From Marinomonas foliarum (lineage in GTDB: Bacteria; Pseudomonadota; Gammaproteobacteria; Pseudomonadales; Marinomonadaceae), in assembly GCF_003337275.1 (NCBI RefSeq), contig NZ_QPJQ01000026.1:1-64000 (forward strand): a DNA stretch of 64,000 nucleotides, in the 5' to 3' direction. The position numbers and the translations under genes are program-made. Position 1 is the stretch's first letter, and every line of letters begins with the position of its first letter. Below the pieces are notes generated by a model. It did no database searches, had not been told where the DNA came from, and saw nothing but the letters and a program-made list of their open reading frames with translations. This document shows, piece by piece, positions 6,716-34,626 of this stretch.

Positions 6716-7306
6716 TCAGACAAACTCTGACGCAGCATCTGCCAAGGCTTCCCATAAATATTGAGAGCTGGCCAAGTCAGAAAGTAAGAGAAAATACTCC
6801 TTCCCCTTCCCTTCCTGTCTGGTCACTATCGCATTGGTCCGAGCAACTGACGTTTGAGCAATGCTACCGATTGGAAATACACTACGCCTTAAATCAACAC
6901 CGCACACTTTAGAAAACATGGTTGCCGTTTGCTCACCTTTAAATAAGAAGCAAGCATGACTGTGTTGACAAAATAAACGGTACACATCATCTAAGCCTTT
7001 TGCACCAAGCTCTAGCGTTTCAATTAATTCATGGTGAGTATTCTCAATATCTACCAGCCAAAATTCGGATTTACTTAAGCGCAATACGACAAGACTCTCG
7101 TCAAAAAGCAGCGATTGATTTGGCTCACTAGGAATAGGCAAACCTTGCGACGTCAAAAAGTTCTCTACGCCCATCCCCCTAAAGCCAACTCTCGAATGTA
7201 CGGTGCAATCTTGACTTTTAATACTGGCGTTAGATAACCCAGAATGAGTTAAATCAAGCATATTTTTGCGTAAGCTAGGCACTGAACTTAAATTAAAAGA
7301 TTCCAT
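6716..7306 (-). CDS. mgdD: N-methylglutamate dehydrogenase / sarcosine oxidase gamma subunit (MgdD, SoxG-like)
   Basis: This 196-residue protein resembles the gamma subunit of heterotetrameric sarcosine oxidase, a small GcvT-like fold that helps bind folate-linked products. Visible family features include SRVGFRGMGVENFL near the N-terminus, FWLVD in the middle and a CGVDLR segment near residue 135. It is the last of four subunit genes and its ATG overlaps the stop of the alpha subunit (TAATG). I name it MgdD rather than SoxG because gmaS and mgsABC, the partner enzymes of the N-methylglutamate pathway, lie in the same island. Sarcosine as substrate remains possible. Gamma subunits diverge quickly, so the assignment leans on position. 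Confidence 0.7.
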   Translation of the reverse strand: MESFNLSSVPSLRKNMLDLTHSGLSNASIKSQDCTVHSRVGFRGMGVENFLTSQGLPIPSEPNQSLLFDESLVVLRLSKSEFWLVDIENTHHELIETLELGAKGLDDVYRLFCQHSHACFLFKGEQTATMFSKVCGVDLRRSVFPIGSIAQTSVARTNAIVTRQEGKGKEYFLLLSDLASSQYLWEALADAASEFV

Positions 7307-10224
7307 TACAACACCTCCTGACGAGCATTGTTTGCATCATAAAAAGGGAGTTTAACGACTTCTGCCATGACGACTTCACCCTTATCAACTCGAATAGGGA
7401 ATGTTGAACCGACTTCTTGCTGATCGATTCCAACAAATGCCATGCCGATATTTGCCCCCATCGTACTGGAATATTCTGAAGAGGTAATATTGCCCGTAAT
7501 GGCGCAATCTACTTGGCTGGCATTGGCCAAGACTAAATGACCCTCTTTAGGTCGTGTTGCCTGCGAATCTAATTTAAAACCAACCAATTTTCGAGTCTGT
7601 TTTCGTGCCATAACAATGTCGACAGATCGACTGCCGACAAAAAACGGCTTCTTACGATTAATCGCCCAATTTAAAGAAAGCTCACCTGGATGCGACATGC
7701 CATCTGTATCTTGGCTTACAATAATATGGCCTTTTTCCAAACGCAGTAATCGCTGAGTTTCGACACCAAATGGTTTCATTTCAAACTCTTTCCCAGCATC
7801 CATTAACCGATCCCAAATACCCTCACCAAACAAGCTAGGCATGTGTATTTCATATCCTAATTCTCCGACAAACCCGACTCTCAATAATCGCACAGGCACA
7901 CCGTCTATCGTGCCTTCTTTATAGGCTAGATAAGGAAAGGCCTCGTTTGAAAAGTCCACATCAAAACAGACCTTACTCAGCACTTTTCTAGCAAGAGGAC
8001 CTGCCACGTTGACGGCAGAAAAAGCGGATGTGACGTTGGCAATATCGACTTTTAAGCGCCATTGCGCGTTCCATTTTGTCATTTCACGATACACAGCATC
8101 CACTCCACTGGTGGTTGCCGTAACGTAGAAATGATCTTCAGCGATACGACAGGCAACGCCATCATCCACAACCACACCCTGCTCATTCGTTAAAACGGCA
8201 TAGCGTGTTTTGCCAATTGGCTGTTTCAAAAATCCAAAAGTATAAATACGGTTAACAAATTCAGCCGCATCTGGACCTCGAACTTCTAGGCCACCCAAGG
8301 TACTGACATCAATCATACCAACCGCATTACGAACCATTTCTGCTTCTTGCTGAATCAACTTGTCGCGATTAACAGGATCACCGTAATACGCTGGGCGACG
8401 CCAAATGCCAGCTGGGATCATATGAGCACCCAGTTCTAAATGACGCTGATGCATTGGCGTATATTTGTGAGGGCTAAATATACGACCCGCAATATGGGCT
8501 AATTTTTCTGGAACAAATGGTGGTCTGGCTGTTGTTACACCCGTTTCAGTCACGGTTCGGTTCGTTGCCTCTGCGACCAATCGAGCCGTCGGTAATGCCG
8601 AGTGACGACCTTGAGATGGCCCCATTCCAACCGTAGAAAATCGTTTGACTAACTGCACATCCCGATAACCTAGGCGAGTGGCATTGACGATGTCTTTAGC
8701 CTGTAGATCTTCATCAAAGTCGACAAAATCTTTGCCTTTAGGGTGTTTAAAGATAGGCCAAGGAAAGTTCGTCTGCTTAACACAAGACACCACTTCAGGC
8801 TCACTACTTGGGATCCCCAATGATGTTAAGCTTTTGTATGCCGCTAACTCACCATCACGGATCACGGCATCTAATTCATGAACACCATTTGCAGACCCTG
8901 CCACATAGAGATTTTTAGGCAAATTAGTCAGTGAAAAACGCGCACTGTCATCGTTATAGCTAAGTTTCGCCCCAGCCTGACAAAGCAATTGGTAAACCGG
9001 CATATAACCTGCGGACATACACAACAAGTCGCAAGGAATCGTTACGCCACCAGCAGAAACCTGTCCTTTCCCTGTGATGTCATGCACTTGAACAGCAGAT
9101 AAGCGCTTCTTATCAGAGCTAGGCAAGGCTTCATAAACAGTCGCATTTAAGCGTATCTTTATGCCTTGTTCTGCCACGGCTTTTTGTAAGGCCTCATCCG
9201 CTCCGTTGGGACGCATATCAACAATGACAGGGACTTGCACACCATTCCTAACTAACTCAAGAGCACATAGATACCCATCATCATTGCCTGTCAGCACTAC
9301 TGCTTTGTTTGCGGGTTTAATCGCATATTGAGACATAAGTCGCATCGCTGCACTCGACATCACCACACCTGGCACATCGTTATTACGAAAGACAACATGT
9401 TGTTCAAACGCTCCAGACGCGACGATGCATTGCTTGGCTCGCGCTTTATACATGCGATTGCCCTGAATAATGGGCAAGTAATTATCGGTAAACCAACCAT
9501 TACAGGTTGCGTTATTCAATATCGTGATGTTTGAGTGATTTACAACACTCTCTGTAAGCTGAGTTCTTAACTCGTTAGCACGTACTCCTTCTACATCAAA
9601 ACGATGGTAGGTCAGAGCGCCCCCTAATATAGGATTTTCATCAACCAATAACACACTTGCGCCTGCATCAGCGGCTTTCAATGCTGCAGCGAGACCAGCA
9701 GGACCGGCACCTATTACGGCAACATCATGAAATAAATAGGCTTTATCATGGTAAACAGGCTTAAAGGTGAGATCGGCAAAGCCTAATCCTGCTTTTTTAC
9801 GTATAAAGGGTTCCCATTTATCCCAGATTCCAATTGGCTTATAAAATGCGCGGTAATAAAATCCCACTGGCATAAACCGTCCTGCATAGGACAATTTTGC
9901 ATCCTTATCATTTTCAAGAGAGCCGTTATAGTTTTGCCCAACAACCTCCAAATCAGCACGAATAAAGTGTTTGTCAGCTAATACATTCGGCTCGCTTTTG
10001 AGCTGAACTAACGTATTGGCATCTTGACCCGCCATGGTTAATGGACCGCGTGGTCGATGGTATTTAAATGAGCGCGACATTAGCCACTGATCATTGGCGA
10101 TCAAGGCACTGGCTATCGTATCGCCTTCCACGCCTTGGTAACGCTGCCCCTCAAACATGAAGTTGATCGTTTTGTCGCGTTTAATGTATAAGCCTAATGG
10201 GGCTGGTAGTCGATTTATGCTCAT
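7306..10224 (-). CDS. mgdC: N-methylglutamate dehydrogenase / sarcosine oxidase alpha subunit (MgdC, SoxA-like)
   Basis: At 972 residues this is a full-length alpha subunit. An N-terminal ferredoxin-like domain (FKYHRPRG at about 53-60) is followed by a dinucleotide-binding fold with VIGAGPAGLAAALKAADAG (about 170-190), a second nucleotide-binding region near 315, and from about residue 580 a GcvT/aminomethyltransferase-type domain that binds tetrahydrofolate. In the complex it channels the methyl-derived C1 unit from the FAD subunit to THF, giving 5,10-methylene-THF. The ATG overlaps the delta subunit stop by 4 bp and the end overlaps the gamma subunit, so the four genes are tightly coupled. 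FolD and PurU, encoded upstream in the same operon, would use the methylene-THF. Confidence 0.85.
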   Translation of the reverse strand: MSINRLPAPLGLYIKRDKTINFMFEGQRYQGVEGDTIASALIANDQWLMSRSFKYHRPRGPLTMAGQDANTLVQLKSEPNVLADKHFIRADLEVVGQNYNGSLENDKDAKLSYAGRFMPVGFYYRAFYKPIGIWDKWEPFIRKKAGLGFADLTFKPVYHDKAYLFHDVAVIGAGPAGLAAALKAADAGASVLLVDENPILGGALTYHRFDVEGVRANELRTQLTESVVNHSNITILNNATCNGWFTDNYLPIIQGNRMYKARAKQCIVASGAFEQHVVFRNNDVPGVVMSSAAMRLMSQYAIKPANKAVVLTGNDDGYLCALELVRNGVQVPVIVDMRPNGADEALQKAVAEQGIKIRLNATVYEALPSSDKKRLSAVQVHDITGKGQVSAGGVTIPCDLLCMSAGYMPVYQLLCQAGAKLSYNDDSARFSLTNLPKNLYVAGSANGVHELDAVIRDGELAAYKSLTSLGIPSSEPEVVSCVKQTNFPWPIFKHPKGKDFVDFDEDLQAKDIVNATRLGYRDVQLVKRFSTVGMGPSQGRHSALPTARLVAEATNRTVTETGVTTARPPFVPEKLAHIAGRIFSPHKYTPMHQRHLELGAHMIPAGIWRRPAYYGDPVNRDKLIQQEAEMVRNAVGMIDVSTLGGLEVRGPDAAEFVNRIYTFGFLKQPIGKTRYAVLTNEQGVVVDDGVACRIAEDHFYVTATTSGVDAVYREMTKWNAQWRLKVDIANVTSAFSAVNVAGPLARKVLSKVCFDVDFSNEAFPYLAYKEGTIDGVPVRLLRVGFVGELGYEIHMPSLFGEGIWDRLMDAGKEFEMKPFGVETQRLLRLEKGHIIVSQDTDGMSHPGELSLNWAINRKKPFFVGSRSVDIVMARKQTRKLVGFKLDSQATRPKEGHLVLANASQVDCAITGNITSSEYSSTMGANIGMAFVGIDQQEVGSTFPIRVDKGEVVMAEVVKLPFYDANNARQEVL

Positions 10225-10532
10225 ACAGTTTTCTCCTCAGCTGATTCCGGTGCGCTTTCAAACTCAACTCGTTTGTTAAACAGCTCAGATGGATCATAGG
10301 TTTTAAGAATTTCATCACTAGCAGTATGGCGTTCTGCAATAAACCAATAGCCAGAAGGCGAGTGAAACCACCACTCTGTCACCACTCGAATGGTATTTTC
10401 AGAATAAAAAACATACTCAGCCCACTCTTTATCCGAACAGGTTAAAGCGTTAGGCATGGCTTTCACTTCACCACCATAAACAAATTCGCTTATATTTCTT
10501 GGCCCATTTAACGGGCAGTTCATAATTTTCAT
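10221..10532 (-). CDS. mgdB: N-methylglutamate dehydrogenase / sarcosine oxidase delta subunit (MgdB, SoxD-like)
   Basis: The gene encodes 103 residues from the ATG at 10532, which has GGAGG five bases upstream; the longer open frame has no such signal. The conserved core NCPLNGPRNISEFVYGGE and EWWFHSPSGYWFIAER identify the small delta subunit. In classical SoxD a zinc ion is held by C-x2-C near the start and by His and Cys in an HxxGC motif. Here the second Cys is Asn (CPLNG) and the later Cys is Gly (HSPSG), so only one Cys and one His remain and zinc binding is probably lost. I recall the same variant in relatives from methylated-amine clusters, which supports the Mgd reading. It overlaps mgdC by 4 bp. 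Confidence 0.75.
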   Translation of the reverse strand: MKIMNCPLNGPRNISEFVYGGEVKAMPNALTCSDKEWAEYVFYSENTIRVVTEWWFHSPSGYWFIAERHTASDEILKTYDPSELFNKRVEFESAPESAEEKTV

Positions 10533-10557
10533 ATTGCCTCCTATTCTAGGAAATCTC

Positions 10558-11805
10558 TTAGTGACTAGCTGCTGTGGCGCCCATTTCATTCACTTGACGA
10601 AACTCATCAAAACGATCCATGGAAAATGGCGCAATTAACTCTGGCACTTTGCCGCCACTTGCCACTAGCTCAGCCATTGATTTCCCGCAAATAGGGGTTG
10701 ATTTGAATCCCCATGTCCCCCAACCGGCATCAAGGTAATAATTCTCAACAGGGCTTAAGCCCATGATAGGGCTGTAATCAGAGGTCATATCAGTAATGCC
10801 GGCCCATTGGCGCATCAATTTCAGGTTCGTCATGAAAGGGAACATTTCAACCGCACTTGCCAATAAGCTTTCTTTTAAATCAAGAGTCGAGCGTGTGTTA
10901 TAAAGTGGATAAGGATCAGATCCGCCACCAAATACAATTTCGCCTCGTCCGGTTTGCTGTACATAACAATGCAATGCAGATGAGCTAACCAATGGATCAA
11001 GAAAAGGTTTGACAGGTTGAGTCACCATGGCTTGAAGAGGGTAAGTGGTAATCGGCATTTTGATGCCCGCCATGGCCGCAACAATTGAGCTATGACCTGC
11101 CACGGCCTGAACAATACAACCGCAAGTGACGGTACCTCGGTTGGTTTTGACCCCTGTCGCCTTACCATTTTCGACAATAACATCCGTGACTTCAGTCAAT
11201 TGATGAAGCTCAACACCACGTTGAGTGGCCCCTTTTGCATAACCCCAAGCAACAGCGTCGTGACGCGCCGTCGCGCCATCAATGTGCCACAAGCCCGCCA
11301 AAATAGGCATATCAGCTGGATTCATATTCAAAGTTGGCACAAGTTCTTTAATTTGTTGAGGGTCAATTAGCTCAGTCTTACCGCCAAAATGTGTATTCAC
11401 TTCTGTACGCTGACGGAATGATCGAACCGTCGAATCTGTGTGCGCCAGTGTCAATTGTCCACGAGAGGAATACATGATATTGAAGTCAAACTCATTCGAA
11501 AGCCCTTTAAACATATCAACGGACTCTTTATAAAACTTAACCCCTTCAGAGGTAAGATAATTAGAGCGAATCACCGCTGTATTCCGTGCTGTATTACCAC
11601 CACCAAGATAACCTTTTTCTAAAATAGCGACGTTAGTAATACCGTGGTATTTGGCTAGGTAATAAGCCGTTGCGACACCGTGTCCGCCCCCACCAATAAT
11701 GACAACATCGTAATGTTTTTTAAGTTCCGTAGGGGACGGTAAATCAACATCATTTTCAAATGGGTAGTCGTTTTTTAAACCGTATTTAAGTAGTGAAAAA
11801 GGCAT
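10558..11805 (-). CDS. mgdA: N-methylglutamate dehydrogenase / sarcosine oxidase beta subunit (MgdA, SoxB-like)
   Basis: This is a 415-residue FAD-dependent amine oxidase of the DAO family, the subunit that oxidises the N-methyl group. The FAD-binding motif VVIIGGGGHGVATAYYLAKY spans about residues 34-53; EKGYLGGGNTARN (about 62-74) fits the covalent-flavin region of SoxB, and the GWGTWGFKSTP region closes the active site near the C-terminus. An AAGGAG box precedes the ATG. It is followed by mgdB, mgdC and mgdD. If this is Mgd, the substrate is N-methylglutamate, giving glutamate and a C1 unit on THF. Motifs alone do not separate it from sarcosine or dimethylglycine oxidases; the context decides. 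Confidence 0.8.
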   Translation of the reverse strand: MPFSLLKYGLKNDYPFENDVDLPSPTELKKHYDVVIIGGGGHGVATAYYLAKYHGITNVAILEKGYLGGGNTARNTAVIRSNYLTSEGVKFYKESVDMFKGLSNEFDFNIMYSSRGQLTLAHTDSTVRSFRQRTEVNTHFGGKTELIDPQQIKELVPTLNMNPADMPILAGLWHIDGATARHDAVAWGYAKGATQRGVELHQLTEVTDVIVENGKATGVKTNRGTVTCGCIVQAVAGHSSIVAAMAGIKMPITTYPLQAMVTQPVKPFLDPLVSSSALHCYVQQTGRGEIVFGGGSDPYPLYNTRSTLDLKESLLASAVEMFPFMTNLKLMRQWAGITDMTSDYSPIMGLSPVENYYLDAGWGTWGFKSTPICGKSMAELVASGGKVPELIAPFSMDRFDEFRQVNEMGATAASH

Positions 11806-11849: not shown

Positions 11850-12710
11850 CTAGTTGAGTTGGTGCTGAGCGGCGGTTAAGGTGTTCTGCATAAGACAAGC
11901 AATGGTCATAGGGCCAACGCCACCAGGAACAGGTGTTATTGCGGATACTTTTGGAAATACAGCACTATAGTCGACATCCCCAACTAATTTTCTTTTGCCT
12001 GCTGATGAGATTTGATTGATACCAACATCTATGACGACTGCGCCGGGCTTTACCCAGTTTTCTTTAACAATAAGAGGTTGACCAACAGCAGCGACTAGAA
12101 TGTCCGCACTACGACAGATCTCTTCAATATTTTGTGTACGAGAGTGCACAATCGTCACAGTACAATGGGATTGCAGGAGCAAATTGGCAATTGGCTTTCC
12201 TACAATATTAGAACGACCTATCACTACGGCATGCTTACCCGATAAACCATCAATATGTCGTTTCAGCATGATCATGCAACCCAATGGCGTACATGGCACA
12301 AGGACTTGTTGCCCCGTCACTAGCTTACCCACATTTTCCGGATGAAAACCATCGACGTCTTTTGAAGGTGAAATGGCTTCAATCACTCGGCTTTCAGATA
12401 AATGTGCAGGCAAAGGGAGCTGCACCAAGATGCCATGCACTGAGTTGTCTCGATTTAACTGATCAATTAATTCATCCAACTGCTGTTGCGTCGTTTCTTC
12501 TGGTAAATAATGCGCGATGGATTGAAGACCCGCCTGCTCTGAGCGTTTGATTTTATTGCGAACATACACGCTACTTGCAGGATCTTCACCGACTAAAACA
12601 ACCGCTAATCCAGGCGTCACCTTGTATTTAAGTTTAAAAGCAGACACTTCTTTCGCCACGTTTTGGACAATTTCATCGGCAAGCTCTTTGCCATCAATCA
12701 TAACTGTCAT
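11850..12710 (-). CDS. folD: Methylene-THF dehydrogenase / methenyl-THF cyclohydrolase
   Basis: FolD interconverts 5,10-methylene-THF, 5,10-methenyl-THF and 10-formyl-THF, using NADP. The 286-residue length is standard. Visible signatures are [16 protein letters not shown], with the catalytic Lys near 54-58, GILVQLPLP near 95, [12 protein letters not shown] near 120, the nucleotide-binding [11 protein letters not shown] near 165 and [11 protein letters not shown] near the C-terminus. It sits between purU and mgdA in one operon, so it is probably a dedicated copy for oxidising the C1 unit released from N-methyl groups, distinct from a housekeeping folD elsewhere in the genome. GGAG lies 6 bases before the ATG. 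Confidence 0.95.
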
Positions 12711-12730: not shown

Positions 12731-13585
12731 CTACTTAAAAACCACTGTTTTATTGCCATACATGAACACTCGATGCTCAAGATGCATTCGAACCGCCGTC
12801 GCCAATGCCACTGTCTCGGTATCTCGACCGATTGCGACTAACCGTTCAGGAGAATAAGTATGATCCACAGGTTGAACGGACTGCGCTATGATTGGCCCTT
12901 CATCCAGATCCGATGTGACATAGTGTGCTGTAGCCCCAATGAGTTTAACCCCGCGTTGATGAGCTTGATGATATGGCTTGGCACCTTTAAACCCAGGTAA
13001 AAAGGAATGATGGATATTGATTGCGCGCCCATGTAATTTTTTACAAAGTGCATCTGATAAAATCTGCATATAACGAGCTAAAACCACTAAGTCCGTATTG
13101 GTTTCAGTAATGATGTCCAATAACGCCGCTTCTTGTTCAGCTTTGTTCTCTTTATTGACTGGTAAATGCACAAAACGAATGCCTTCCCGCTCAACCATAG
13201 GCCTTAAATCTCTATGATTTGACACTACCGCTGTAATGTCCATGGGTAACTCACCTTTGCGGTGACGGTATAAAAGGTCATCAAGACAGTGATCAAACTT
13301 ACTGACCATCAGCAATACTTTTACAGGTTGGTTCTTATCTAAAATCTCCCAGTCCATATTGAAACGGGCAACCTGTGCATCAAAGTCCTCTCGAATTGAC
13401 ACAATAGTCTGAGCATTGCCTTCTATTCGACACTCGGCGCGCATAAAAAAGCGACTGCTTTCTTCATCATCAAATTGATGCATTTCAGAAATATAGCAAT
13501 CATGCTCTGCAAGATAAGAAGACACCGCTGCCACAATGCCACTTGTAGCATCGCAGGAAGCCTTTAAAACGAACTCTTTAGACAT
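12731..13585 (-). CDS. purU: Formyltetrahydrofolate deformylase
   Basis: PurU hydrolyses 10-formyl-THF to formate and THF. The 284-residue protein has an N-terminal ACT domain (about 1-80) with FFMRAECRIE, and a C-terminal formyltransferase-type hydrolase with AVVSNHRDLRPMV, LARYMQILSD, INIHHSFLPGFKGAKPYHQA and the catalytic Asp in TSDLDEGPII. I chose the ATG at 13585, which has GAGG nine bases upstream; the longer frame begins at TTG. As first gene of the operon with folD and mgdABCD, it would regenerate THF and export the methyl carbon as formate. The divergent IclR gene shares its promoter region. Confidence 0.95.
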   Translation of the reverse strand: MSKEFVLKASCDATSGIVAAVSSYLAEHDCYISEMHQFDDEESSRFFMRAECRIEGNAQTIVSIREDFDAQVARFNMDWEILDKNQPVKVLLMVSKFDHCLDDLLYRHRKGELPMDITAVVSNHRDLRPMVEREGIRFVHLPVNKENKAEQEAALLDIITETNTDLVVLARYMQILSDALCKKLHGRAINIHHSFLPGFKGAKPYHQAHQRGVKLIGATAHYVTSDLDEGPIIAQSVQPVDHTYSPERLVAIGRDTETVALATAVRMHLEHRVFMYGNKTVVFK

Positions 13586-13733
13586 ATCACTAAACCTCAA
13601 ATATAAAAGAATTATTCATATACAAATTAAAAAGTTTTATTTTTACGCTTTAAAAATCAGTTACATTCAAATATATTAAATTTAATTATTTTTGAAAGTA
13701 AAACAGCCAAAATTTTTAAAATAATACAAAATT

Positions 13734-13773: not shown

Positions 13774-14529
13774 ATGACAAAAAACACTGAATATCACGTT
13801 CCTGCGTTATCTCGAGGACTGCAAATAATTGAGATGTTTGATAAAGAAAGAAGAGTATTAAACACACAAGATTTTGCTGACAACCTAGGAGTGAGCGCAT
13901 CCTCCACTTATCGTATAGTTCAAACCTTATTGGATATGGGTTATCTAAAGAAAGTCACCCGGAATGCTTACGAGCTTGGACCTCAAGTCGTTTCTCGTGG
14001 CTTTGCTTTTTTGGCTGGCAAAGATTTAGTCGATATCGCAGCACCTCATTTAAACGAGCTAAGAGACAGAACCTCTATTTCATGTCATCTAGGAATACGC
14101 GACGGATTAGAAACAGTTTATATTTATCGATCTCAAGCCTCTCAACGCTTATCGGTGAATATCCCGCTGGGGTCACGCTTGCCTTGCCATACAAATGCAA
14201 TGGGGCGAGTGCTACTGCAACAACTCAGTGATATTGAGCTCAATGCCATGTATCAAACCCAGCAATTGGACTCCTATCCAGGCCCTTATCCTCAATCATT
14301 CCCTGAATTAAAAGCGCTTTTGAAAAAAGAATGGGATCAAGGCTATTCAAGCAACCGATCTGATAATGCAACCGCCATTGCTGTACCAATAACCAATTAT
14401 TTAGGCAAAACTATAGCGGCTATCAACATATCTGGTGCCGACCAAGTCATGAATAACCAAGAACAATTTGAAGCCGCGAAAGAGGAATTACTCAATACAG
14501 CAAAAGCCATTTCACAGTTAACACCCTAA
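13774..14529 (+). CDS. IclR family transcriptional regulator
   Basis: The 251-residue protein has the usual IclR layout: an N-terminal winged helix (about 8-75) with ALSRGLQIIEMF and GVSASSTYRIVQTLLDMGYL as the helix-turn-helix, then a GAF-like effector domain with the LPCHTNAMGRVLL and YSSNRSDNATAIAVPI signatures. It is divergent from purU-folD-mgdABCD and upstream of the convergent gabD-BCCT operon. It probably senses a pathway metabolite and controls the adjacent operons. A motif shared between its own promoter region and that of the TAXI operon at 6.4 kb suggests a wider regulon. The effector is not evident from sequence. Confidence 0.9.
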   Translation: MTKNTEYHVPALSRGLQIIEMFDKERRVLNTQDFADNLGVSASSTYRIVQTLLDMGYLKKVTRNAYELGPQVVSRGFAFLAGKDLVDIAAPHLNELRDRTSISCHLGIRDGLETVYIYRSQASQRLSVNIPLGSRLPCHTNAMGRVLLQQLSDIELNAMYQTQQLDSYPGPYPQSFPELKALLKKEWDQGYSSNRSDNATAIAVPITNYLGKTIAAINISGADQVMNNQEQFEAAKEELLNTAKAISQLTP

Positions 14530-14533: not shown

Positions 14534-14567
14534 TGGGCATCTCTGAAAATAAATTCAGAAATGCCCA
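14534..14567. terminator. Bidirectional terminator between IclR gene and gabD
   Basis: TGGGCATCTCTGAA pairs with TTCAGAAATGCCCA around a six-base AT loop. It lies between the convergent IclR and aldehyde dehydrogenase genes and is flanked by an A run on the left, suiting termination from the right-hand operon as well. Confidence 0.75.
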
Positions 14568-14601
14568 CCTTATTCAGATGTTATTAAAGCAACAACATTA
14601 A

Positions 14602-22800: not shown

Positions 22801-22830
22801 ACTCATTCCTACAATAAAAATATTTATTTG

Positions 22831-25755: not shown

Positions 25756-26607
25756 ATGTTTATGATTTCTTCTAGAAAGAAATGGAACAACGTCACTCTT
25801 TTATTTCCAATAATCCTGTTCTTGTTTCTCTTCTTTATAATACCTTTAGCAAGTTTGCTTCTACGCAGCTTGACCGAGCCAACGTTTGGGCTGCAAAACT
25901 TTGAGCAGTTGTTAGCCACATCAACTTACGTACAGGTTCTATTCAATACCTTCCTTGTTGCTACCTTAGTGACCGTAATTTCGTTGTTAATAGGGTTTCC
26001 TTTAGCTTGGTGTATCACCTTAATGCCTAAAGGATGGGGACGTTTTTTAATCAGCATTATCTTACTGTCCATGTGGACTAGCTTATTGGCAAGAACCTAT
26101 TCATGGCTGGTTTTACTGCAATCATCGGGCATTATTAATAAAACATTGATGGCGATTGGCATAATCAACCAGCCTCTAGAGATGGTGCACAACCTAACAG
26201 GCGTCATCATTGGCATGAGTTACATAATGGTTCCTTTTATTGTTCTGCCCTTACAGGCTTGTATGTCTGCGATTGATCCTATGGTTTTACAAGCGGCATC
26301 CATTTGTGGAGCTTCTGCTCGAACCGTCTTTTTCCGTATTTTTTTACCTTTATGTAAACCAGGACTTTTCTCTGGTGCACTAATGGTATTTGTTATGTCA
26401 CTAGGCTACTACGTAACTCCAGCGCTACTGGGTGGTGTTAGAGATATGATGCTGCCTGAATTTATCGTTCAGCAAATACAGAATTTCTTGAACTGGGGTA
26501 TGGCAAGTGCATCAGCCGTTCTACTGATTCTTATTACTCTCGTTCTGTTTTACCTCTATTTAAAAGTACAAACAGACTCACCCGTTTCGTCGAACACAGG
26601 AGCCTAA
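25756..26607 (+). CDS. ABC transporter permease (PotB type)
   Basis: This 283-residue inner-membrane permease has about six helices; the first is LLFPIILFLFLFFIIPLASL near residue 14. The coupling-loop (EAA) region is represented by VLQAASICGASARTVFFRIFLPLCKPG (about 178-204). It forms the translocation pore with the next permease and docks the ATPase. The gene begins 79 bp after the binding protein and a GGGGA box precedes the ATG. Confidence 0.9.
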   Translation: MFMISSRKKWNNVTLLFPIILFLFLFFIIPLASLLLRSLTEPTFGLQNFEQLLATSTYVQVLFNTFLVATLVTVISLLIGFPLAWCITLMPKGWGRFLISIILLSMWTSLLARTYSWLVLLQSSGIINKTLMAIGIINQPLEMVHNLTGVIIGMSYIMVPFIVLPLQACMSAIDPMVLQAASICGASARTVFFRIFLPLCKPGLFSGALMVFVMSLGYYVTPALLGGVRDMMLPEFIVQQIQNFLNWGMASASAVLLILITLVLFYLYLKVQTDSPVSSNTGA

Positions 26608-26609
26608 CT

Positions 26610-27416
26610 ATGCTACTTTCACACGGTTCACTTGGATGGAAGCTTAAATCATCTCTTTATATCATTACGGGGGTTATTGCCGCTTTTTTAGCATTGCCTA
26701 TTTTTTTTATAATGGCCTTATCCTTTGGTTCGTCTCAGTGGCTTGTGTTTCCACCACCATCTTGGACACTAAAATGGTACGAACGCTTTTTTGATAACTC
26801 ACAATGGATTGAGTCAGCAATAACAAGCTTACAAGTTGCCAGTCTGACGTCTATCATTGCCACATTGCTCGCCATCCCCGCCTCTTTCGCGCTGGTACGA
26901 GGTCAATTCCGAGGAAGAGATTATTTATATACTTTCTTCACTCTACCAATGGTGGTGCCGGTTGTTATTATTGCGGTTGCAGTCTACGGAACCTTTCTTA
27001 ATTTAGGACTCACTGGGACCTTGTTCGCCTTTGTTGCCAGTCACGTCATAATTGCATTGCCTTTTGCTATTATTTCAATCATTAACTCCCTTCGACTTTT
27101 TGATAAATCCATTGAAGATGCGGCTGTAATCTGTGGCGCTCATCGCATTCAAGCGATTATCAAAGTGACGTTTCCTGCCATTAAACCGGGGGTTATTTCC
27201 GCTGCACTGTTCTCATTTTTGGTGTCATGGGACGAAGTAGTTATTAGTGTAATGATGGCCAGCCCAAACTTACAAACGCTTCCAGTCAAAATGTGGTCAA
27301 CCCTTCGACAGGACCTGACTCCGGTTATTGCCGTCGCATCGACACTTCTTATTTTACTTTCATTGTTAATTATGATCATTGCCAGCTTTGTTCGTAAACA
27401 AAGTAATCACCACTAG
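26610..27416 (+). CDS. ABC transporter permease (PotC type)
   Basis: The second permease subunit, 268 residues with about six helices. The coupling loop IEDAAVICGAHRIQAIIKVTFPAIKPG (split here: IEDAAVICGAHR, then IIKVTFPAIKPG) lies at about 169-195 and contacts the ATPase. It begins 2 bases after the stop of the first permease, showing tight operon structure. Family pattern follows PotC/YdcU-like permeases of polyamine-class importers. Confidence 0.9.
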   Translation: MLLSHGSLGWKLKSSLYIITGVIAAFLALPIFFIMALSFGSSQWLVFPPPSWTLKWYERFFDNSQWIESAITSLQVASLTSIIATLLAIPASFALVRGQFRGRDYLYTFFTLPMVVPVVIIAVAVYGTFLNLGLTGTLFAFVASHVIIALPFAIISIINSLRLFDKSIEDAAVICGAHRIQAIIKVTFPAIKPGVISAALFSFLVSWDEVVISVMMASPNLQTLPVKMWSTLRQDLTPVIAVASTLLILLSLLIMIIASFVRKQSNHH

Positions 27417-27426
27417 GAGACATATT

Positions 27427-28569
27427 ATGAGCTTACAGACAAACACGATGACTCAATCCCCTTTAGTTTGTTTACGAGAATTAAATAAAGAATATGGCAA
27501 CTTTACTGCTGTAGACCATATCAATTTGGACATTAGAAAAGGCGAATTTTTAACCTTTTTAGGATCTAGCGGTTCGGGTAAAAGCACGACACTTTCCATG
27601 ATTGCAGGCTTTGAAACACCGACATCAGGCGAAATATTACTGAATGATGCTTCCCTTATTAACATTCCCTCGCATAAGCGAGGTATTGGCATGGTCTTTC
27701 AACATTACTCTTTATTCCCGCATATGAGCGTGCGAGACAACATTGGCTTTCCACTCGATATTCGCAAAGTAGCAAAAGATGAACGCGACAAAAAAGTGGA
27801 TGAAATATTACAACTAGTACAACTTGAAGCTTTTGCAGATCGCCGTCCATCTATGCTATCTGGTGGACAAAAACAACGTGTTGCCATTGCCCGAGCTTTG
27901 GTCTACGAGCCTGAAATACTATTAATGGATGAGCCATTAGGCGCTCTTGATAAAAAGCTAAGGGAAGATTTGCAAGATGAACTTCGCTTATTACATAAAA
28001 GACTTGGCATTACGATTGTCTATGTCACTCATGACCAAGATGAGGCTATGCGCCTATCTGAACGAATTGCCATTTTTAAAGAGGGTGAAATCGTTGGTTT
28101 AGGTACAGGTAAAGATTTATATCGTAAACCACCAAATGCATTCGTCGCTTCGTTTTTAGGAAACTCAAATTTCTTAAAAATCAATGTGACTGGTGCAGCT
28201 TCTGCACAACTAGATAAACATCACATTATATTGGACGATTTACATGTGATGCCAATAAACCAACAAGCACTACTAATGATTCGACCAGAAAATCTACAAA
28301 TACTCACCCCAGAACAAGCTAAAAATGAGGCTTTAATAAACGGATTTAATCAAATATCTGGAACAGTCAATGAATCTGTTTTTCTTGGAGAAAGCCTTAC
28401 TTGCAGTATCACGATCCCATCCGGTGAACAATTAATCAGTAAGAACATCGCAACTGAGCAGCCTGATTTAGAACCGGGCTCAACTGTTTTCATTCGATGG
28501 AATAGCAAGCATAGCTCTCTGTATTCAAAATGGGAGCAAAGTGATATTAATAAGAATTCAGCCCAATAA
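27427..28569 (+). CDS. ABC transporter ATP-binding protein (PotA type)
   Basis: The chosen ATG at 27427 has AGGAG upstream; the longer open frame runs back into the permease gene. The 380-residue protein has the Walker A motif GSSGSGKST (about 51), Q-loop region VFQHYSLFPHMSV, signature LSGGQKQRVAIARAL (about 144), Walker B EILLMDEPLGALD (about 166) and switch His in YVTHDQDEA. A C-terminal TOBE domain (from about 260) with LMIRPENLQIL resembles regulatory domains of PotA-like ATPases. It powers the importer encoded upstream and is the last gene before the terminator at 28598. Confidence 0.95.
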   Translation: MSLQTNTMTQSPLVCLRELNKEYGNFTAVDHINLDIRKGEFLTFLGSSGSGKSTTLSMIAGFETPTSGEILLNDASLINIPSHKRGIGMVFQHYSLFPHMSVRDNIGFPLDIRKVAKDERDKKVDEILQLVQLEAFADRRPSMLSGGQKQRVAIARALVYEPEILLMDEPLGALDKKLREDLQDELRLLHKRLGITIVYVTHDQDEAMRLSERIAIFKEGEIVGLGTGKDLYRKPPNAFVASFLGNSNFLKINVTGAASAQLDKHHIILDDLHVMPINQQALLMIRPENLQILTPEQAKNEALINGFNQISGTVNESVFLGESLTCSITIPSGEQLISKNIATEQPDLEPGSTVFIRWNSKHSSLYSKWEQSDINKNSAQ

Positions 28570-28597
28570 TCCTCAAAAGTATAATTAGTCACCTTAG

Positions 28598-28622
28598 GGG
28601 AATGGAATATACATTCCCTTTT
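28598..28622 (+). terminator. Terminator after ABC importer operon
   Basis: GGGAATG pairs with CATTCCC around a seven-base loop and is followed by TTTT, 29 bases after the ATPase stop codon. Confidence 0.75.
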
Positions 28623-28707
28623 ATATGCTAAAAGTCTTTCAATAAATACATTACTAATGCTTTATAAAGGCTGGGGGATTGAAAGGAATTTGAGGGGAAT
28701 AAATAAT

Positions 28708-28773: not shown

Positions 28774-30033
28774 CTACTTATTGGCTTCTACACCAAACTC
28801 TGGGTAAGCATGCATACCACACTCATGCATATCCATTCCCTCTAATTCTTCCTCTTCGCTTGCACGAAGACCCATAATTTTCTTAATAATCCACAAAGAA
28901 ATAATGGTCATCACAAACATCCAAATAAAGGTACAAATCATGCCGGTGAATTGACCGAAAAAAGTCGCGTCATCGTTTGATATCAGAACAGCAAAGATGC
29001 CCCAAATACCTGCTGAACCATGAACAGAAATGGCTCCAACTGGATCATCAATTTTCAATTTATCCATTGCTAAAACAGAAAGCACAACAACAATACCGCC
29101 AACCGCACCAATCAATGATGACATAGCCGCTGAAGGCGCAAGTGGTTCAGCGGTAATAGCCACTAGGCCTGCTAACGCACCATTAATTGTCATTGTTAAA
29201 TCAGTCTTACCAAATAAGAAACGCGCAAAAAGAGCCGCTGCAATCATTCCTGTTGCAGCTGCCGCATTGGTATTAACAAAAATTTTGGCAACCGCGTTGG
29301 CCTCTTCAACATTGGATATTTTTAGTTCTGAGCCACCATTAAAACCAAACCATCCCATCCAAAGAATAAACATACCTAATGTAGCAAGTGGCAAGTTAGC
29401 ACCTGGAATAGCACGAACTTCTCCGTTCTTCCCATAACGACCTTTACGAGGGCCAACCATAATTACAGCCGCCAACGCTGCAGAGGCGCCAGCCATATGC
29501 ACAACAACTGATCCCGCAAAATCCTGGAAGCCCAATTGATCTAGAAAGCCACCGCCCCATTTCCAATACCCTTCTACAGGATAGATAACTGCAACCATTA
29601 CCACAGCAAAAACTAGGAAAGGCCATAAACGCATCCTTTCTGCAACAGCGCCGGATACAATCGACATTGTTGCAGCGGCAAAAACAGCTTGGAAAATAAA
29701 GTCAGCCATAGACGAATAATACGGAGCGTCATCAGAGCCTCCTATGACAGCATCGACAACATTATCGTCTCCCAAGAAAAAGTTAATGCCGGGAATATAG
29801 GCACTAATAGGATCAACTGGATACATGATGTTGTAGCCAACACATAGATAAACAAAGCACGCAATACCATAAAGTAGTGCGTTTTTATTTAATATCTCCA
29901 CTGTATTTTTACCACGAACAAGCCCGGCTTCTAACATTGCAAAACCAGCGGCCATCCACATTACTAGCGCAGCACACATCAGGAAATAAAATGTATCCAG
30001 CGCATAGCTAACTTCAATTACCATATTGCCCAT
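28774..30033 (-). CDS. amtB: Ammonium / methylammonium transporter (Amt family)
   Basis: The ATG at 30033 with an upstream GGAG gives 419 residues; the longer frame begins at TTG. Eleven or so membrane helices and the Amt pore signatures are visible: the conserved Asp-Phe-Ala-Gly before GSVVVHMAGASAALAA with the first pore His, FGFNGGS, and SVHGSAGIWG with the second His. The C-terminal tail is cytoplasmic and acidic (EEEELEG). It lies downstream of gmaS-mgsABC on the same strand but is separated by a terminator. No glnK accompanies it. In this setting it may take up methylammonium or recapture ammonium and methylamine released inside the cell. Confidence 0.9.
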   Translation of the reverse strand: MGNMVIEVSYALDTFYFLMCAALVMWMAAGFAMLEAGLVRGKNTVEILNKNALLYGIACFVYLCVGYNIMYPVDPISAYIPGINFFLGDDNVVDAVIGGSDDAPYYSSMADFIFQAVFAAATMSIVSGAVAERMRLWPFLVFAVVMVAVIYPVEGYWKWGGGFLDQLGFQDFAGSVVVHMAGASAALAAVIMVGPRKGRYGKNGEVRAIPGANLPLATLGMFILWMGWFGFNGGSELKISNVEEANAVAKIFVNTNAAAATGMIAAALFARFLFGKTDLTMTINGALAGLVAITAEPLAPSAAMSSLIGAVGGIVVVLSVLAMDKLKIDDPVGAISVHGSAGIWGIFAVLISNDDATFFGQFTGMICTFIWMFVMTIISLWIIKKIMGLRASEEEELEGMDMHECGMHAYPEFGVEANK

Positions 30034-30246
30034 AGATATAAACTCCAAGTTGAGAAAACATAAAATTTACTATCAAGAAAATAAATTTCTTCATAGGACA
30101 ACTTCAAGTTCTAGGCCAACAATATTTAAGATACTGAAAAATAAGAAGTAATTTATTAATATTTGATATATGAAATGAAAGTTTATCTGGGCAAAAGAAC
30201 AACATTAGTAAGGCACTAGAAAGAATCAAAAAAATAAATTTCGCAC

Positions 30247-30298: not shown

Positions 30299-31627
30299 TT
30301 AGAATCTTTGACCAGGAATCCAGTTTGTTCCCGCTAAAGGAACTCGCGCCATTGCAGCAGATTCAACTGTCAAAGCAACAAGGTCTTCTGGCTCTAAATT
30401 ACGTAAATCATTCTTACCGCAGGCACGCGCCAATGTTTGTGCCTCAAGCGTTAATACACGAAGATAATTTGCCAAACGGCGACCAGCCTCCACAGGGTCT
30501 AGACGTTTCATTAGTTCAGGATCCTGAGTGGATATACCGGCCGGATCTTTACCTTCTTGGTAATCATCATAAAAACCAGCAGCAGAGCCAATCGCCTTAT
30601 AGTCTTCATCCCATTTAGGATCGTTACATCCTAAAGCAACCAACGCTGCCGTACCTATCGCTACGGCATCTGCGCCTAGCGCCATACACTTCGCAACATC
30701 AGCACCATTTCGGATACCTCCAGAAACAATAAGCTGCACTTTGCGGTGCATACCCATTTCTTGCAATGCTTGAACTGCTTGAGGAATAGCCGCCATCGTT
30801 GGAATACCAACATGCTCGATAAAGACATCTTGCGTTGCCGCTGTGCCACCTTGCATACCATCAACAACAATCACATCTGCGCCAGCTTTTACTGCTAACT
30901 TCACATCATAGTAAGTTCGTGTCGCACCTACTTTAATATAAATAGGTACTTCCCAGTCGGTAATTTCTCGTAACTCTTGAATCTTAATAGCAAGATCATC
31001 AGGCCCAGTCCAATCTGGATGACGGCAAGCTGAACGCTGATCAATACCTTTCGGTAAGTTACGCATTTGAGCAACACGATCTGTGATCTTCTGCCCAAGT
31101 AGCATACCGCCGCCACCAGGTTTAGCGCCTTGACCAAGCACGACTTCAATAGCATCCGCTTTACGCAGATCATCTGGATTCATACCGTAACGAGAAGGCA
31201 GATACTGATAAACCAATTTACTAGATTGACCACGTTCTTCAGGCGTCATGCCGCCATCCCCTGTGGTTGTAGATGTGCCAACAATCGACGCGCCTCGTCC
31301 CAATGCTTCTTTTGCATTCGCCGATAAAGCCCCAAAACTCATCCCTGCTATGGTCACCGGAATATCTAACTTAATGGGTTTCTTGGCGAAGCGATCACCC
31401 AAAATAACTGACGTATTACAAGTCTCACGATAACCTTCTAATGGGTAGCGAGACATACTCGCCCCTAAGAACAAAAGGTCATCAAAATGCGGCACTTTAC
31501 GTTTTGCCCCAAAACCACGGATGTCATAAATACCAGTATTTGCTGCACGGCGAATTTCAGCCATCGTGGCACGATCAAACGTAGCGGACTCTTTTAAGCT
31601 AGGATTGTTGTTTGTATCATTGCTCAT
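30299..31627 (-). CDS. mgsC: N-methylglutamate synthase FMN subunit (MgsC, GltB central domain-like)
   Basis: This 442-residue protein corresponds to the FMN-binding synthase domain of glutamate synthase, encoded separately. Visible features are TIAGMSFGALSANAKEALG (about 90-108), TTTGDGGMTPEER, GAKPGGGGMLLGQKI (about 178-192), IYIKVGATRTYYDVKLAV and VSGGIRNGADVAKCMALGADAV. In the N-methylglutamate pathway it transfers a methylamino group onto 2-oxoglutarate together with MgsA and MgsB. The C-x5-C-x4-C iron-sulfur motif of GltB is missing: DPAGISTQ stands where CPVGxCTQ is expected. It ends the operon gmaS-mgsA-mgsB-mgsC. A stand-alone glutamate synthase is the alternative, but gmaS next door argues for Mgs. 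Confidence 0.85.
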   Translation of the reverse strand: MSNDTNNNPSLKESATFDRATMAEIRRAANTGIYDIRGFGAKRKVPHFDDLLFLGASMSRYPLEGYRETCNTSVILGDRFAKKPIKLDIPVTIAGMSFGALSANAKEALGRGASIVGTSTTTGDGGMTPEERGQSSKLVYQYLPSRYGMNPDDLRKADAIEVVLGQGAKPGGGGMLLGQKITDRVAQMRNLPKGIDQRSACRHPDWTGPDDLAIKIQELREITDWEVPIYIKVGATRTYYDVKLAVKAGADVIVVDGMQGGTAATQDVFIEHVGIPTMAAIPQAVQALQEMGMHRKVQLIVSGGIRNGADVAKCMALGADAVAIGTAALVALGCNDPKWDEDYKAIGSAAGFYDDYQEGKDPAGISTQDPELMKRLDPVEAGRRLANYLRVLTLEAQTLARACGKNDLRNLEPEDLVALTVESAAMARVPLAGTNWIPGQRF

Positions 31628-31647
31628 AGTAAAAACCTCTCAGAAAA

Positions 31648-32331
31648 TTAGTAAGCCGATGCATTGTCAACTTTGAAGGTGTAAAGCTGGCGAGCTGATC
31701 CATAGCGCTTAAAATCAAGAGGATTTTCATCCACTCCCGCTTTCTCTAATAAACCTTTCAACTCAGCAACATGCTCGCTTCGCATTTCTTTTTCAATGCA
31801 ATCTGCCCCAAGGGATTTAACCGTCCCTTTTACATAGATATGCACTTCATACAAAGAGTCACCTAATGCCTCACCCGCATCTCCACACACAACAAGTGAT
31901 CCAGATTGCCCCATAAAACAACTCATGTGACCGATACTGCCTTTAACAACAATGTCGACGCCTTTCATCGAAATACCACAACGAGCACCCGCATTGCCTT
32001 CGATAACCAAAAGCCCACCATGCGCCGTTGCTCCGGCAGCTTGAGACGCATCACCTTTGATACGCACAACGCCTGACATCATATTTTCAGCAACCCCCTG
32101 CCCTGCATTTCCATGAACCGTGATATTGGCGGTTTTATTCATCCCTGCGCAGAAGTAACCTGCATGCCCATGAATATCAACCGAGATATCCGCGTCCAAC
32201 CCAACAGCAATGTTGTGATTACCTTTAGGGTTGGTCACAACCCATTCTTTTTCAGTTAAATTATCTTTGCACTCATGTAAGGCTTTATTTAAATCTCGTA
32301 CAGATTGAGCGGCTAAATCGACAGTCATCAT
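31648..32331 (-). CDS. mgsB: N-methylglutamate synthase GXGXG subunit (MgsB)
   Basis: The 227-residue protein is a free-standing glutamate-synthase C-terminal (GXGXG beta-helix) domain: HGHAGYFCAGMNKTANITVHGNAGQGVAENM, shown in pieces here, followed by repeats of G-x-A-G and G-D-A (VIEGNAGARCGIS, VVCGDAGEALGDS). It is a structural subunit of the split synthase. The start is ATG at 32331, nine bases after AGGAG; a second ATG follows immediately. It lies between mgsA and mgsC with 18-20 bp gaps. Confidence 0.85.
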   Translation of the reverse strand: MMTVDLAAQSVRDLNKALHECKDNLTEKEWVVTNPKGNHNIAVGLDADISVDIHGHAGYFCAGMNKTANITVHGNAGQGVAENMMSGVVRIKGDASQAAGATAHGGLLVIEGNAGARCGISMKGVDIVVKGSIGHMSCFMGQSGSLVVCGDAGEALGDSLYEVHIYVKGTVKSLGADCIEKEMRSEHVAELKGLLEKAGVDENPLDFKRYGSARQLYTFKVDNASAY

Positions 32332-32349
32332 TTTCAAATTCTCCTAAAA

Positions 32350-33249
32350 CTATTTACGTTCCCAAATGTAGAAAGTAGCGGGCTCTGGCTCCCAAACTTT
32401 GGCATTTTCGATACCAGGTAAGGTAACCAAAGCTTGGTACTCTGATGCCATTGCAACGTAATCATCTGTTTCAGCAAGCACCGCAGGTTTACAAGCAATT
32501 GGGTCACGCATAACAGCAAAGCCGTCTTTAGTACCAATAGTAAAAGTAAAAAATCCATCAAGATCTTTCAGTGCATTTTCCAAGGCCTCTTTTAATGTAT
32601 CACCTTGGTTAAGACGCCAAGTTAAATAGCCAGCCGCCACTTCGGAATCGTTTTCCGTTTCAAACGTAATGCCTTCGCGTTTTAGTTTATCTCGCAGACG
32701 ATTGTGATTTGACAGCGATCCATTATGGACAAGACACAAATCAGAACCCGTCGAAAAAGGGTGGCTACCTTCCATGGTTACTGCAGACTCTGTCGCCATA
32801 CGAGTATGGCCAATGATATGACTGCCCTTCATTCCACTTAGGTTAAATTTCGAAGCAATATTTTCAGGCAACCCAACTTCTTTTAGAATTTCAATAGAAG
32901 AGCCTGCACTCAAAATCAAAACATCAGGATAAAGCTCATCCAGCGCGCTACGGGCAGAACTCTCATCCGTGTTAATTTTTAGCACTGCGACATTCGCGTT
33001 TTGCATCCATTTGATTTCACAACCTAATGACGCTGATAGCTTGTCACTCAGCTTTTCCCAGCTAAAGGCTTCATCAGGATGTCTTAATGTTAACTTGACC
33101 CAACCTTCACCAACTTCATCACCATAAATGGCAAAACCTGCACTATCTGGACCACGATCTGTCATTGAAATGAGCATTGGCTCAAACAACTCACCCAAAT
33201 TTTTTTCAAACTTATCGTTTTTTAAATAAAGCCCAACAATTCCACACAT
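32350..33249 (-). CDS. mgsA: N-methylglutamate synthase amidotransferase subunit (MgsA)
   Basis: A 299-residue class-II glutamine amidotransferase. MCGIVGLYL at the N-terminus exposes the nucleophilic Cys2 once Met is removed; TDRGPDSAGFAIYG (about 31), IGHTRMATES (about 146), HPFSTGSDLCLVHNGSLSNH (about 163) and ENDSEVAAGYL (about 199) are the usual class-II motifs. In the N-methylglutamate pathway the substrate is gamma-glutamylmethylamide made by GmaS, from which methylamine is released and passed to MgsC. It follows gmaS by 42 bp. Confidence 0.85.
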   Translation of the reverse strand: MCGIVGLYLKNDKFEKNLGELFEPMLISMTDRGPDSAGFAIYGDEVGEGWVKLTLRHPDEAFSWEKLSDKLSASLGCEIKWMQNANVAVLKINTDESSARSALDELYPDVLILSAGSSIEILKEVGLPENIASKFNLSGMKGSHIIGHTRMATESAVTMEGSHPFSTGSDLCLVHNGSLSNHNRLRDKLKREGITFETENDSEVAAGYLTWRLNQGDTLKEALENALKDLDGFFTFTIGTKDGFAVMRDPIACKPAVLAETDDYVAMASEYQALVTLPGIENAKVWEPEPATFYIWERK

Positions 33250-33291: not shown

Positions 33292-34626
33292 TTAAAAGAA
33301 CTCGGCATATTTTTCGACTTCCCAAGAAGATACTTGGCGAGAATACTCATTCCATTCGGCACGTTTCACTTTAATAAATTCCGCGACAAGGTTTTCCCCC
33401 ATGGCCTCAATAAAAACAGAATCCTTTTCTAATTCATCAAGTGCATCACCAAGGGATTGAGGAAGAATAGAAATATTCTTGGCAATAATATCTTCTAGAG
33501 AAAGATCATAAAGATTGATGTTCATCGGTTCGCCTGGATCAAGCTCACGTTCTATACCGTCTAGGCCCGCAGCAATTAAAGCGGAATGAACAAGATAAGG
33601 ATTGCACCCAGAATCAGGTAGTCGAAACTCCAAACGACCATACGGCACACGAACCAAAGCTGAACGATTGTTATCGCCGTAGCACACGTAAGCTGGTGCC
33701 CAGGTCGCACCTGAACTATTGCCACCAACAACTAAACGCTTATATGAATTCACTGTCGGAGCGGCAAACGCACAAATCGCTTTGGCGTGCGCCAGAATAC
33801 CCGCCGTAAAGTGATACGCTAATTTTGAAAGGCCCATGCCATTTTTATCACTGTCATCGTTGAATAAGTTCTTACCAGACTCATCTGTGATAGATAAATG
33901 GAAATGCATGCCATTGCCTGTTTTATCTGGGGCAGGTTTTGGCATAAATGAACAGATCATCCCCATATCGTTAGCAATTTCACCAGCTGCCATACGAACA
34001 AATGTGAATCGATCAGCAGACTCTAGCGCATCGCCATAGGTGTAGTTAATTTCAAACTGGCCATTCGCATCTTCGTGATCAATTTGGTAAACATCAAAAT
34101 TTACCGCTTGTAATGACTCGACTAAACGCTCTAGGAACTCACGAGAACGAGAAAGTCCTTTATAGTCATAACAGGGCTTAGCAAGCTTATCGGACTTGTC
34201 CACTGGAAGTAGCTCGCCATACTCGCCTTTTTTGAACAAGTAAAACTCTGGCTCAAGCCCAGTATTTAAAGTCCAACCTTTGTCTTCTAAGCGCTTAATT
34301 TGATTTTTTAGCACGACACGTGAGCAATATGGATGAGGCTCATTATTCACATATCCATCGCAGACCAACCTTGCATAACCTGGCTGCCAAGGGACAATAC
34401 TTAATGTAGAGAGATCACCACGTGCCAAAAAATCAGGACCATGAGGTTCCATAGCAAGACCAGTAACGGCAAAACCTGCAAAGCCAGCCCCCTTTTCGAC
34501 AACATCAAAAATATTCTTTGCAGGCACCGATTTTGTTTTTGCTACGCCATGAATATCCACAAACTGCGCTAAAACATATTTGATATTATTATCTTTAAGA
34601 AAGCCTTCTACTGCATCTGATTGCAT
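33292..34626 (-). CDS. gmaS: Gamma-glutamylmethylamide synthetase (GmaS)
   Basis: The 444-residue protein is a glutamine-synthetase superfamily member: [15 protein letters not shown] at the N-terminus, [15 protein letters not shown] (about 117-131), [17 protein letters not shown] (about 185), [12 protein letters not shown] (about 241), [15 protein letters not shown] and [13 protein letters not shown]. GmaS ligates methylamine to glutamate with ATP. Adjacent mgsABC distinguishes it from a normal glutamine synthetase, which would be longer in the GlnA type and not linked to these genes. AGGAG precedes the ATG. A candidate sigma-54 promoter lies at 34817-34831, and CTATAGGAA repeats just downstream of it suggest a repressor, probably the divergent XRE-cupin protein. 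Confidence 0.85.

Follow-up and report, generated by a model that had tools for sequence, protein, structure and literature searches.

Plants and marine plankton contain trigonelline and homarine as nitrogenous solutes, and Perchat et al. 2018 is said to have described the trigonelline (tgn) pathway in Acinetobacter baylyi. Ring opening by TgnA/TgnB is stated in PMC8269262, and the GmaS-Mgs-Mgd route through N-methylglutamate (NMG) is described in PMC13390433; homarine or trigonelline is mentioned in both papers as well as in PMC9723723 and PMC12817926. Here we analyze a locus of Marinomonas foliarum that brings genes of both kinds together. The window, by which we mean the whole 64,000-nucleotide stretch that was analyzed, is bases 1-64000 of contig C26 in a host genome of 4.16 Mb. 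A trigonelline-type catabolic module probably sits inside an NMG methylamine locus in this window, with the two pathways joined; its substrate, the fluxes and the joint use are what we infer from the genes.

The five-gene core of the ring-opening half (17962-22806, minus strand) is transcribed from the AA_synth gene to the dehydrogenase gene, and its gene order is that of A. baylyi. Identity to the A. baylyi proteins is 64% for the oxygenase, 53% for the dehydrogenase, 39% for the reductase, 33% for the hydrolase, 65% for AA_synth and 57% for the neighboring succinate-semialdehyde dehydrogenase (SSADH). In a tree, the oxygenase groups with the TgnB rows, separate from paralogs of about 40% identity. 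The predicted core is thus orthologous to the tgn operon of Acinetobacter, though diverged from it. An earlier note on this DNA had listed the genes of both halves and read the monooxygenase set as tgn-like. Every gene on that list is an open frame of the expected family by frame calls and family searches, and the comparison of the oxygenase, reductase, dehydrogenase and hydrolase with Tgn proteins bears out orthology to tgnABC and the hydrolase, accompanied by SSADH. The reductase start given there, at 21403, also stands: its ribosome-binding site is superior to that of the longer, TTG-initiated frame from 21448.

A plasmid search with the window oxygenase (E≤1e-40) returned 326 records, including a plasmid of Acinetobacter sp. 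PK01 annotated tgnA, tgnB and tgnC. From a scan of named genomes we kept the best 80 of 576 oxygenase relatives as named loci, A. baylyi DSM 14961 among them, and counted neighbors within 10 kb at preset identity thresholds, some contigs ending sooner. The core families recur near the oxygenase in nearly all of these best 80: the dehydrogenase in 80/80, the hydrolase in 79/80, and AA_synth and the reductase in 78/80 each. Within the same distance lie GntR (74/80), DUF1330 (61/80), SSADH of at least 45% identity (29/80) and CMD (28/80), together with the importer genes PotB (20/80), PotD (19/80) and BCCT (9/80). Because both recur in the named loci, the PotDBCA-like importer and the BCCT carrier are recurrent tgn neighbors, and the window has both. 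The tgn-type locus of R. etli has a PotDBCA-like importer one small gene downstream of the dehydrogenase, and in six congeners BCCT comes next after the core.

The predicted one-carbon (C1) half is an NMG locus of the GmaS-Mgs-Mgd type. MgsC, MgsB and MgsA are 82%, 73% and 73% identical to the gmaS-linked set of PK01, and MgdA and MgdC are 79% and 62% identical to those of A. baylyi. The soxG, soxA, soxD and soxB NCBIfam matches of the mgd subunits are, in 4/4 cases, under the curated cut-offs of these sarcosine-oxidase families. MgdA at 93-100% identity occurs in 14/48 Marinomonas genomes, and a 42-47% paralog in 44/48, the window genome included; the window Mgd thus appears distinct from the sarcosine-oxidase-like paralog. 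The methylamine half of the earlier proposal holds up, with GmaS over the TIGR03105 cut-off, family matches for MgsABC and Mgd apart from that paralog. Amt is 96% identical and likewise adjoins mgsC in the congeners G005 and G027, which have no tgn genes at this site. Loci L134-L137, from G003 and G022, carry mgd-folD-purU-IclR without gmaS (E≤1e-120), without the oxygenase and with no evident source of N-methylglutamate.

The relation between the halves is clearest within the genus. Searching 48 Marinomonas genomes for the oxygenase (E≤1e-60), gmaS (E≤1e-120) and a close mgdA gave 11, 13 and 14 carriers, respectively. gmaS was found in 7/11 oxygenase carriers vs 6/37 non-carriers (Fisher p 0.0044, relatedness not corrected). 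Both sets share one locus in five of the 11 (the window genome, G044, G009, G019 and G040), and in G023 and G047 the oxygenase and gmaS lie on different contigs. A compact NMG locus, with no tgn genes between IclR and Amt/mgsC, is found in G002, G005, G010, G023, G027 and G047. When the window is aligned by blastn to G005 and G027 (L126/L127), homology ends at about 14588 and restarts at 28698, with flanks of 85% and 89% identity. The joining of the two sets claimed earlier is therefore upheld, the tgn set lying inside an otherwise conserved NMG locus. The G044 locus is without the BCCT-SSADH part (about 14545-17940 of the window).

We also compared the NMG genes by DNA (mgdC, mgdA, folD, purU, IclR, Amt, mgsC, mgsA, gmaS and XRE). 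Identity to the window is 85-93% in G044 (rpoB 87%) and 80-89% in G005/G027 (rpoB 86-87%), and mgdC, mgdA, folD, purU and IclR of G003 reach 85-89% vs 82% for rpoB. The core is 84-86% identical in G044 and 81-87% in G001 and G032, despite rpoB identities of 95-96%. Since rpoB as a rule evolves slowly, the comparison, with rpoB as its sole baseline gene, suggests that the NMG locus and the core may both have been exchanged between species. In an rpoB tree covering 19 of these 48 genomes, the window is placed among four species that have the core only.

The same linkage occurs outside the genus. In A. baylyi, about 32 kb hold mgsCBA-gmaS, XRE, amt, CMD, SSADH, tgnCBA, the hydrolase, AA_synth, GntR, DUF1330, mgd, folD and purU. 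The PK01 plasmid (NZ_CP094644.1, about 38 kb) has mgsABC-gmaS, amt, SSADH, tgnCBA, the hydrolase, AA_synth, GntR, DUF1330, mgd, folD and purU. The 25 kb of it that run from gmaS into tgnA are fully present, at 97%, on the A. junii plasmid CP077416.1 (mgs and mgd lie outside this comparison); among 23 matching records, this is the only one besides PK01 where a single place spans at least 80% of these 25 kb. Among seven tgn-bearing Acinetobacter genomes (L012-L017 and L019; L018 left out), four have gmaS and the same four show mgd beside tgn; gmaS is seen close to the tgn core itself in two of the four, L013 and L015. Four Rhodobacterales loci (L046, L047, L049 and L053) carry MgsC (78-79%) at most 10 kb from tgn. 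Two of these, L046 and L053, have directly after mgsC a type III synthetase over the TIGR03105 cut-off and 37-38% identical to that of the window, in an order unlike the window.

Across the best 80 of 576, MgdA (at least 55%) or MgsC (at least 60%) lies within 10 kb in 8/80 named loci, and 72/80 are without. Because the core recurs in nearly all 80 loci and other lineages, too, have it linked to NMG genes, the arrangement is more than chance. The pairing of tgn with NMG genes is a recurring partnership and not unique to the window. The earlier note had known of no described element that packages both; a lack of precedent did not survive, as A. baylyi and the PK01 plasmid have the same neighbors. 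Among the literature matches listed, no paper joins tgn and NMG genes by title, the two most relevant papers standing outside that comparison. The joining is new neither to nature nor to the species of the original pathway description.

Several observations weigh against this picture, some bearing on joint function and others on the substrate. Four congeners (G001, G031, G032 and G038) carry the core with BCCT and SSADH and without gmaS (E≤1e-120) or close mgd, which shows that the core can do without the NMG genes, and six congeners have gmaS without the oxygenase. The rpoB tree requires a minimum of four changes for the linked state, which clusters no better than shuffled labels (150/500 as low). 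In two sets of genomes of named tgn carriers, gmaS at E≤1e-120 was found in 7/20 and 0/20, the latter count being partly a threshold effect, as this cut-off misses distant copies such as the L046 and L053 synthetases. Two plasmids, one from Acinetobacter and one from Pseudomonas, have stretches with gmaS-mgs and without tgn. Finally, the two halves have separate regulators, and joint regulation is at most putative.

It could therefore be that the NMG locus serves environmental methylamine and that the tgn module merely landed there, with no joint function. The core-only and NMG-only congeners, the two plasmids and the separate regulators would all fit this explanation, as would NMG genes about as similar as rpoB, or more so, to rather distant congeners, a sign that the locus may travel alone. 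However, the linkage recurs in Acinetobacter, Marinomonas and some Rhodobacterales in different orders, and gmaS is enriched among oxygenase carriers. We regard an absence of joint function as quite improbable.

The second set of points concerns the substrate. The Marinomonas oxygenases form one clade on a long stem (0.89), nested in a larger, supported clade that also holds Roseobacter-type sequences of marine origin, and the A. baylyi oxygenase stands elsewhere in the tree (a quick tree with SH-like approximate likelihood-ratio test support only, in which long-branch placement is unsure). At 157 oxygenase positions conserved to at least 97% in 86 other rows, the genus keeps 138 and has changed 19, and the changes may or may not touch the substrate pocket. 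In pairwise identity between the window and eight other loci, the window is an outlier for the dehydrogenase (54-56% vs 67-80% among the others), the hydrolase (32-39% vs 49-69%), the reductase (36-43% vs 44-64%) and the oxygenase (59-66% vs 67-83%). It is much less outlying for AA_synth (63-68% vs 64-91%) and not at all for SSADH (53-58% vs 52-67%).

Outlying core enzymes imply that the substrate may have shifted. A shift to a different N-methylpyridinium betaine, of which homarine (N-methylpicolinate) is one example, is conceivable and in our view rather unlikely. With homarine, the same chemistry would yield an N-formyl-N-methyl-dehydroglutamate skeleton and from it 2-oxoglutarate and methylamine, or else NMG directly for Mgd. 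Homarine would explain why, apart from AA_synth, the core genes of the window are clear outliers on a long branch. The four linked Marinomonas loci other than the window also have no SSADH in the fetched stretches, and PMC13390433 cites a 2026 paper for a role of Mgd in homarine catabolism. However, the oxygenase family contains TgnB, which together with TgnA is judged unlikely to act on homarine for steric reasons in a 2021 paper (PMC8269262). SSADH belongs to the module in the window and six congeners, and direct formation of NMG would leave gmaS-mgs with nothing to do. Moreover, G003 and G022, which have mgd and no gmaS, are without a core homolog in the fetched stretches, and none of ten scanned proteins neighboring mgd there looks ring-opening.

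A wider version, in which the genus represents a diverged ring-opening branch for a non-trigonelline N-methylpyridinium betaine, is unlikely, slightly more so than the shift to homarine. This branch would lie inside the NMG locus in the window and four other genomes, keeping ring carbon, methyl carbon and nitrogen, and its core-only relatives would lose methylamine to neighbors. The presence of SSADH in the module, and of gmaS-mgs in the locus, fits the release of succinate semialdehyde and free methylamine. These two compounds are the products of trigonelline. The designation of the core as 'trigonelline-type' is well founded, and trigonelline itself is the likely substrate.

For a joint tgn-NMG route, the reaction scheme follows the A. 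baylyi and NMG literature. The betaine would be taken up via the PotDBCA-like importer or the BCCT carrier, and the TgnAB-like two-component monooxygenase would cleave the C5-C6 bond of the ring, so that C6 remains as an N-formyl group. A TgnC-like dehydrogenase would oxidize the resulting aldehyde, after which the hydrolase, perhaps with AA_synth, would release formate, CO2, methylamine and succinate semialdehyde. SSADH would convert the four-carbon part to succinate. GmaS would capture the methylamine and MgsABC would turn it into NMG, which Mgd would split into glutamate and methylene-tetrahydrofolate, with FolD and PurU carrying the C1 unit on to formate and Amt recapturing leaked ammonium or methylammonium. 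The presence of gmaS in the joint locus supports this reading, because gmaS is needed only where free methylamine is met. We infer that the route may be complete 'to C1 and ammonia'.

That ring opening is repeatedly paired with the capture of methylamine suggests that it is worthwhile to keep the methyl group and nitrogen. One genus offers a clean comparison of the module only, the NMG locus only and both in one locus, and this contrast makes methylamine leakage and cross-feeding directly testable.

Table 1. Features of the joint locus, in window coordinates.
Feature	Position	Strand	Basis
mgdDCBA-type N-methylglutamate dehydrogenase, SoxG/A/D/B-like	6716-7306, 7306-10224, 10221-10589, 10558-11805	-	NCBIfam matches
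folD	11850-12710	-	NCBIfam PRK14188, over cut-off
purU, formyltetrahydrofolate deformylase	12731-13600	-	TIGR00655, over cut-off
IclR/PcaR-type regulator, accompanies mgd locus	13774-14529	+	family match; kept in congeners without tgn there
Stretch absent from empty-site congeners (SSADH, BCCT, tgn core, GntR, CMD, DUF1330, PotDBCA)	14589-28697 (~14.1 kb)		
SSADH, GabD-like	14602-16065	-	TIGR01780, over cut-off; 57% to tgn-linked A. baylyi SSADH
BCCT carrier, candidate betaine importer	16103-17740	-	TIGR00842, over cut-off
TgnC-like aldehyde dehydrogenase	17962-19452	-	53% identity to A. baylyi ortholog
TgnB-like flavin-dependent, luciferase-like oxygenase	19464-20498	-	64% to A. baylyi and to PK01 TgnB; tree
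TgnA-like flavin reductase	20495-21403	-	Flavin_Reduct; 39% over 299 columns to A. baylyi ortholog
Alpha/beta hydrolase, at tgn hydrolase position	21396-22229	-	32-39% to counterparts (33% to A. baylyi); GHSMG
AA_synth (PF06684/DUF1185) protein	22201-22806	-	family match; 65% to A. baylyi
GntR-FCD regulator, divergent from core	22913-23605	+	family match
CMD-family protein	23602-23982	+	family match
DUF1330 protein	24009-24302	+	family match
PotDBCA-like ABC importer	24654-28569	+	family matches; 48-59% to importer of R. etli tgn-type locus
Ammonium transporter (Amt)	28774-30048	-	TIGR03644
mgsC, mgsB, mgsA (N-methylglutamate synthase)	30299-33249	-	glutamate-synthase, FwdC-like and amidotransferase-type family matches
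gmaS, gamma-glutamylmethylamide synthetase	33292-34626	-	TIGR03105, 649 bits vs cut-off 469.6
XRE-cupin regulator of gmaS locus	34947-35600	+	HTH_3 and Cupin_2; 59% to PK01 gene adjoining gmaS

The GntR-FCD, CMD and DUF1330 genes between core and importer, and the IclR gene, are additions to the earlier gene list (Table 1). Motifs are intact in the hydrolase (GHSMG) and the two dehydrogenases (GQSC/LELGG and GQTC/MELGG), and we take these to be the catalytic motifs. Among 24 PDB matches of the hydrolase, a distant one is alpha-(N-acetylaminomethylene)succinic acid hydrolase (3kxp). Past Flavin_Reduct, the C-terminal region of the reductase has no Pfam match, yet aligns with the A. baylyi protein. 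AA_synth is, with the oxygenase, the best-conserved gene of the operon and is a candidate for a missing enzyme of the pathway. Its predicted model (mean predicted local distance difference test score, pLDDT, of 80) has structure matches at E≤0.001 solely to the DUF1185 entries 3byq and 2qtp, from which no function follows; these are reported as chorismate-mutase-like, with ligand unknown (PMC2954203).

Related clusters were also seen elsewhere. On Aminobacter and Agrobacterium fabrum plasmids (L007:5496-11035 and L008:5466-11255), distant clusters with oxygenases 39-41% identical comprise the same five families in other orders and with other neighbors, perhaps for ring opening of related heterocycles. 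Caballeronia pedi (L033:4707-9040) has two divergent cores back to back, with oxygenases 51% and 63% identical to that of the window, and in one of the two copies AA_synth is matched as two separate pieces. A second oxygenase was sought at E≤1e-30 in 20 genomes behind named loci (19 alphaproteobacteria and one uncultured gammaproteobacterium). A single match was obtained in 19/20 and a second, at 28% identity, in one; in these genomes, therefore, no near paralog was found that could serve a second substrate. It was in this set of 20 that gmaS gave 0/20 at E≤1e-120.

To the left of the window mgd genes lie genes for HutF and a TAXI-type TRAP transporter (1000-6408). Homologs are directly beside mgd in G022, whereas in G003 about 5-10 kb separate them from the IclR end of the locus, and these regions are 74-82% identical to the window by DNA. 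The genes scanned across 1000-40375 include no integrase or transposase, such as an autonomous mobile element would be expected to have.

The NMG loci of PMC13390433 resemble the window in having GmaS, MgsABC, MgdABCD and folate genes. In the available part of that paper, they are studied with trimethylamine oxidation and with the often mgd-linked regulator TmaR, and not with a pyridinium ring-opening operon. The homarine pathway (Ferrer-Gonzalez et al., 2026) also concerns a methylated pyridine alkaloid and, according to its citation in PMC13390433, involves Mgd; this citation already connects Mgd with a pyridine betaine in print. The PK01 plasmid, like the window, unites NMG and tgn sets in one stretch. 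Unlike the window, it is plasmid-borne, with annotated methylated-amine oxidation genes between the blocks, and a cytosine permease-type carrier follows tgnC where the window has PotDBCA and BCCT importers. The genes between the PK01 blocks (L011:1748-39479) are annotated for dimethylamine oxidation and as other aminomethyltransferase-type genes, which gives the whole the look of a methylated-nitrogen catabolic block. Set against the A. baylyi locus, the window has core proteins 33-65% identical, another block order and spacing, and an oxygenase in another part of the tree. What the two share is the core order of AA_synth, hydrolase, TgnA, TgnB and TgnC, divergent GntR and DUF1330 genes, SSADH and CMD nearby, and mgd, folD and purU on one side with gmaS-mgs on the other, within about 32 kb in DSM 14961.

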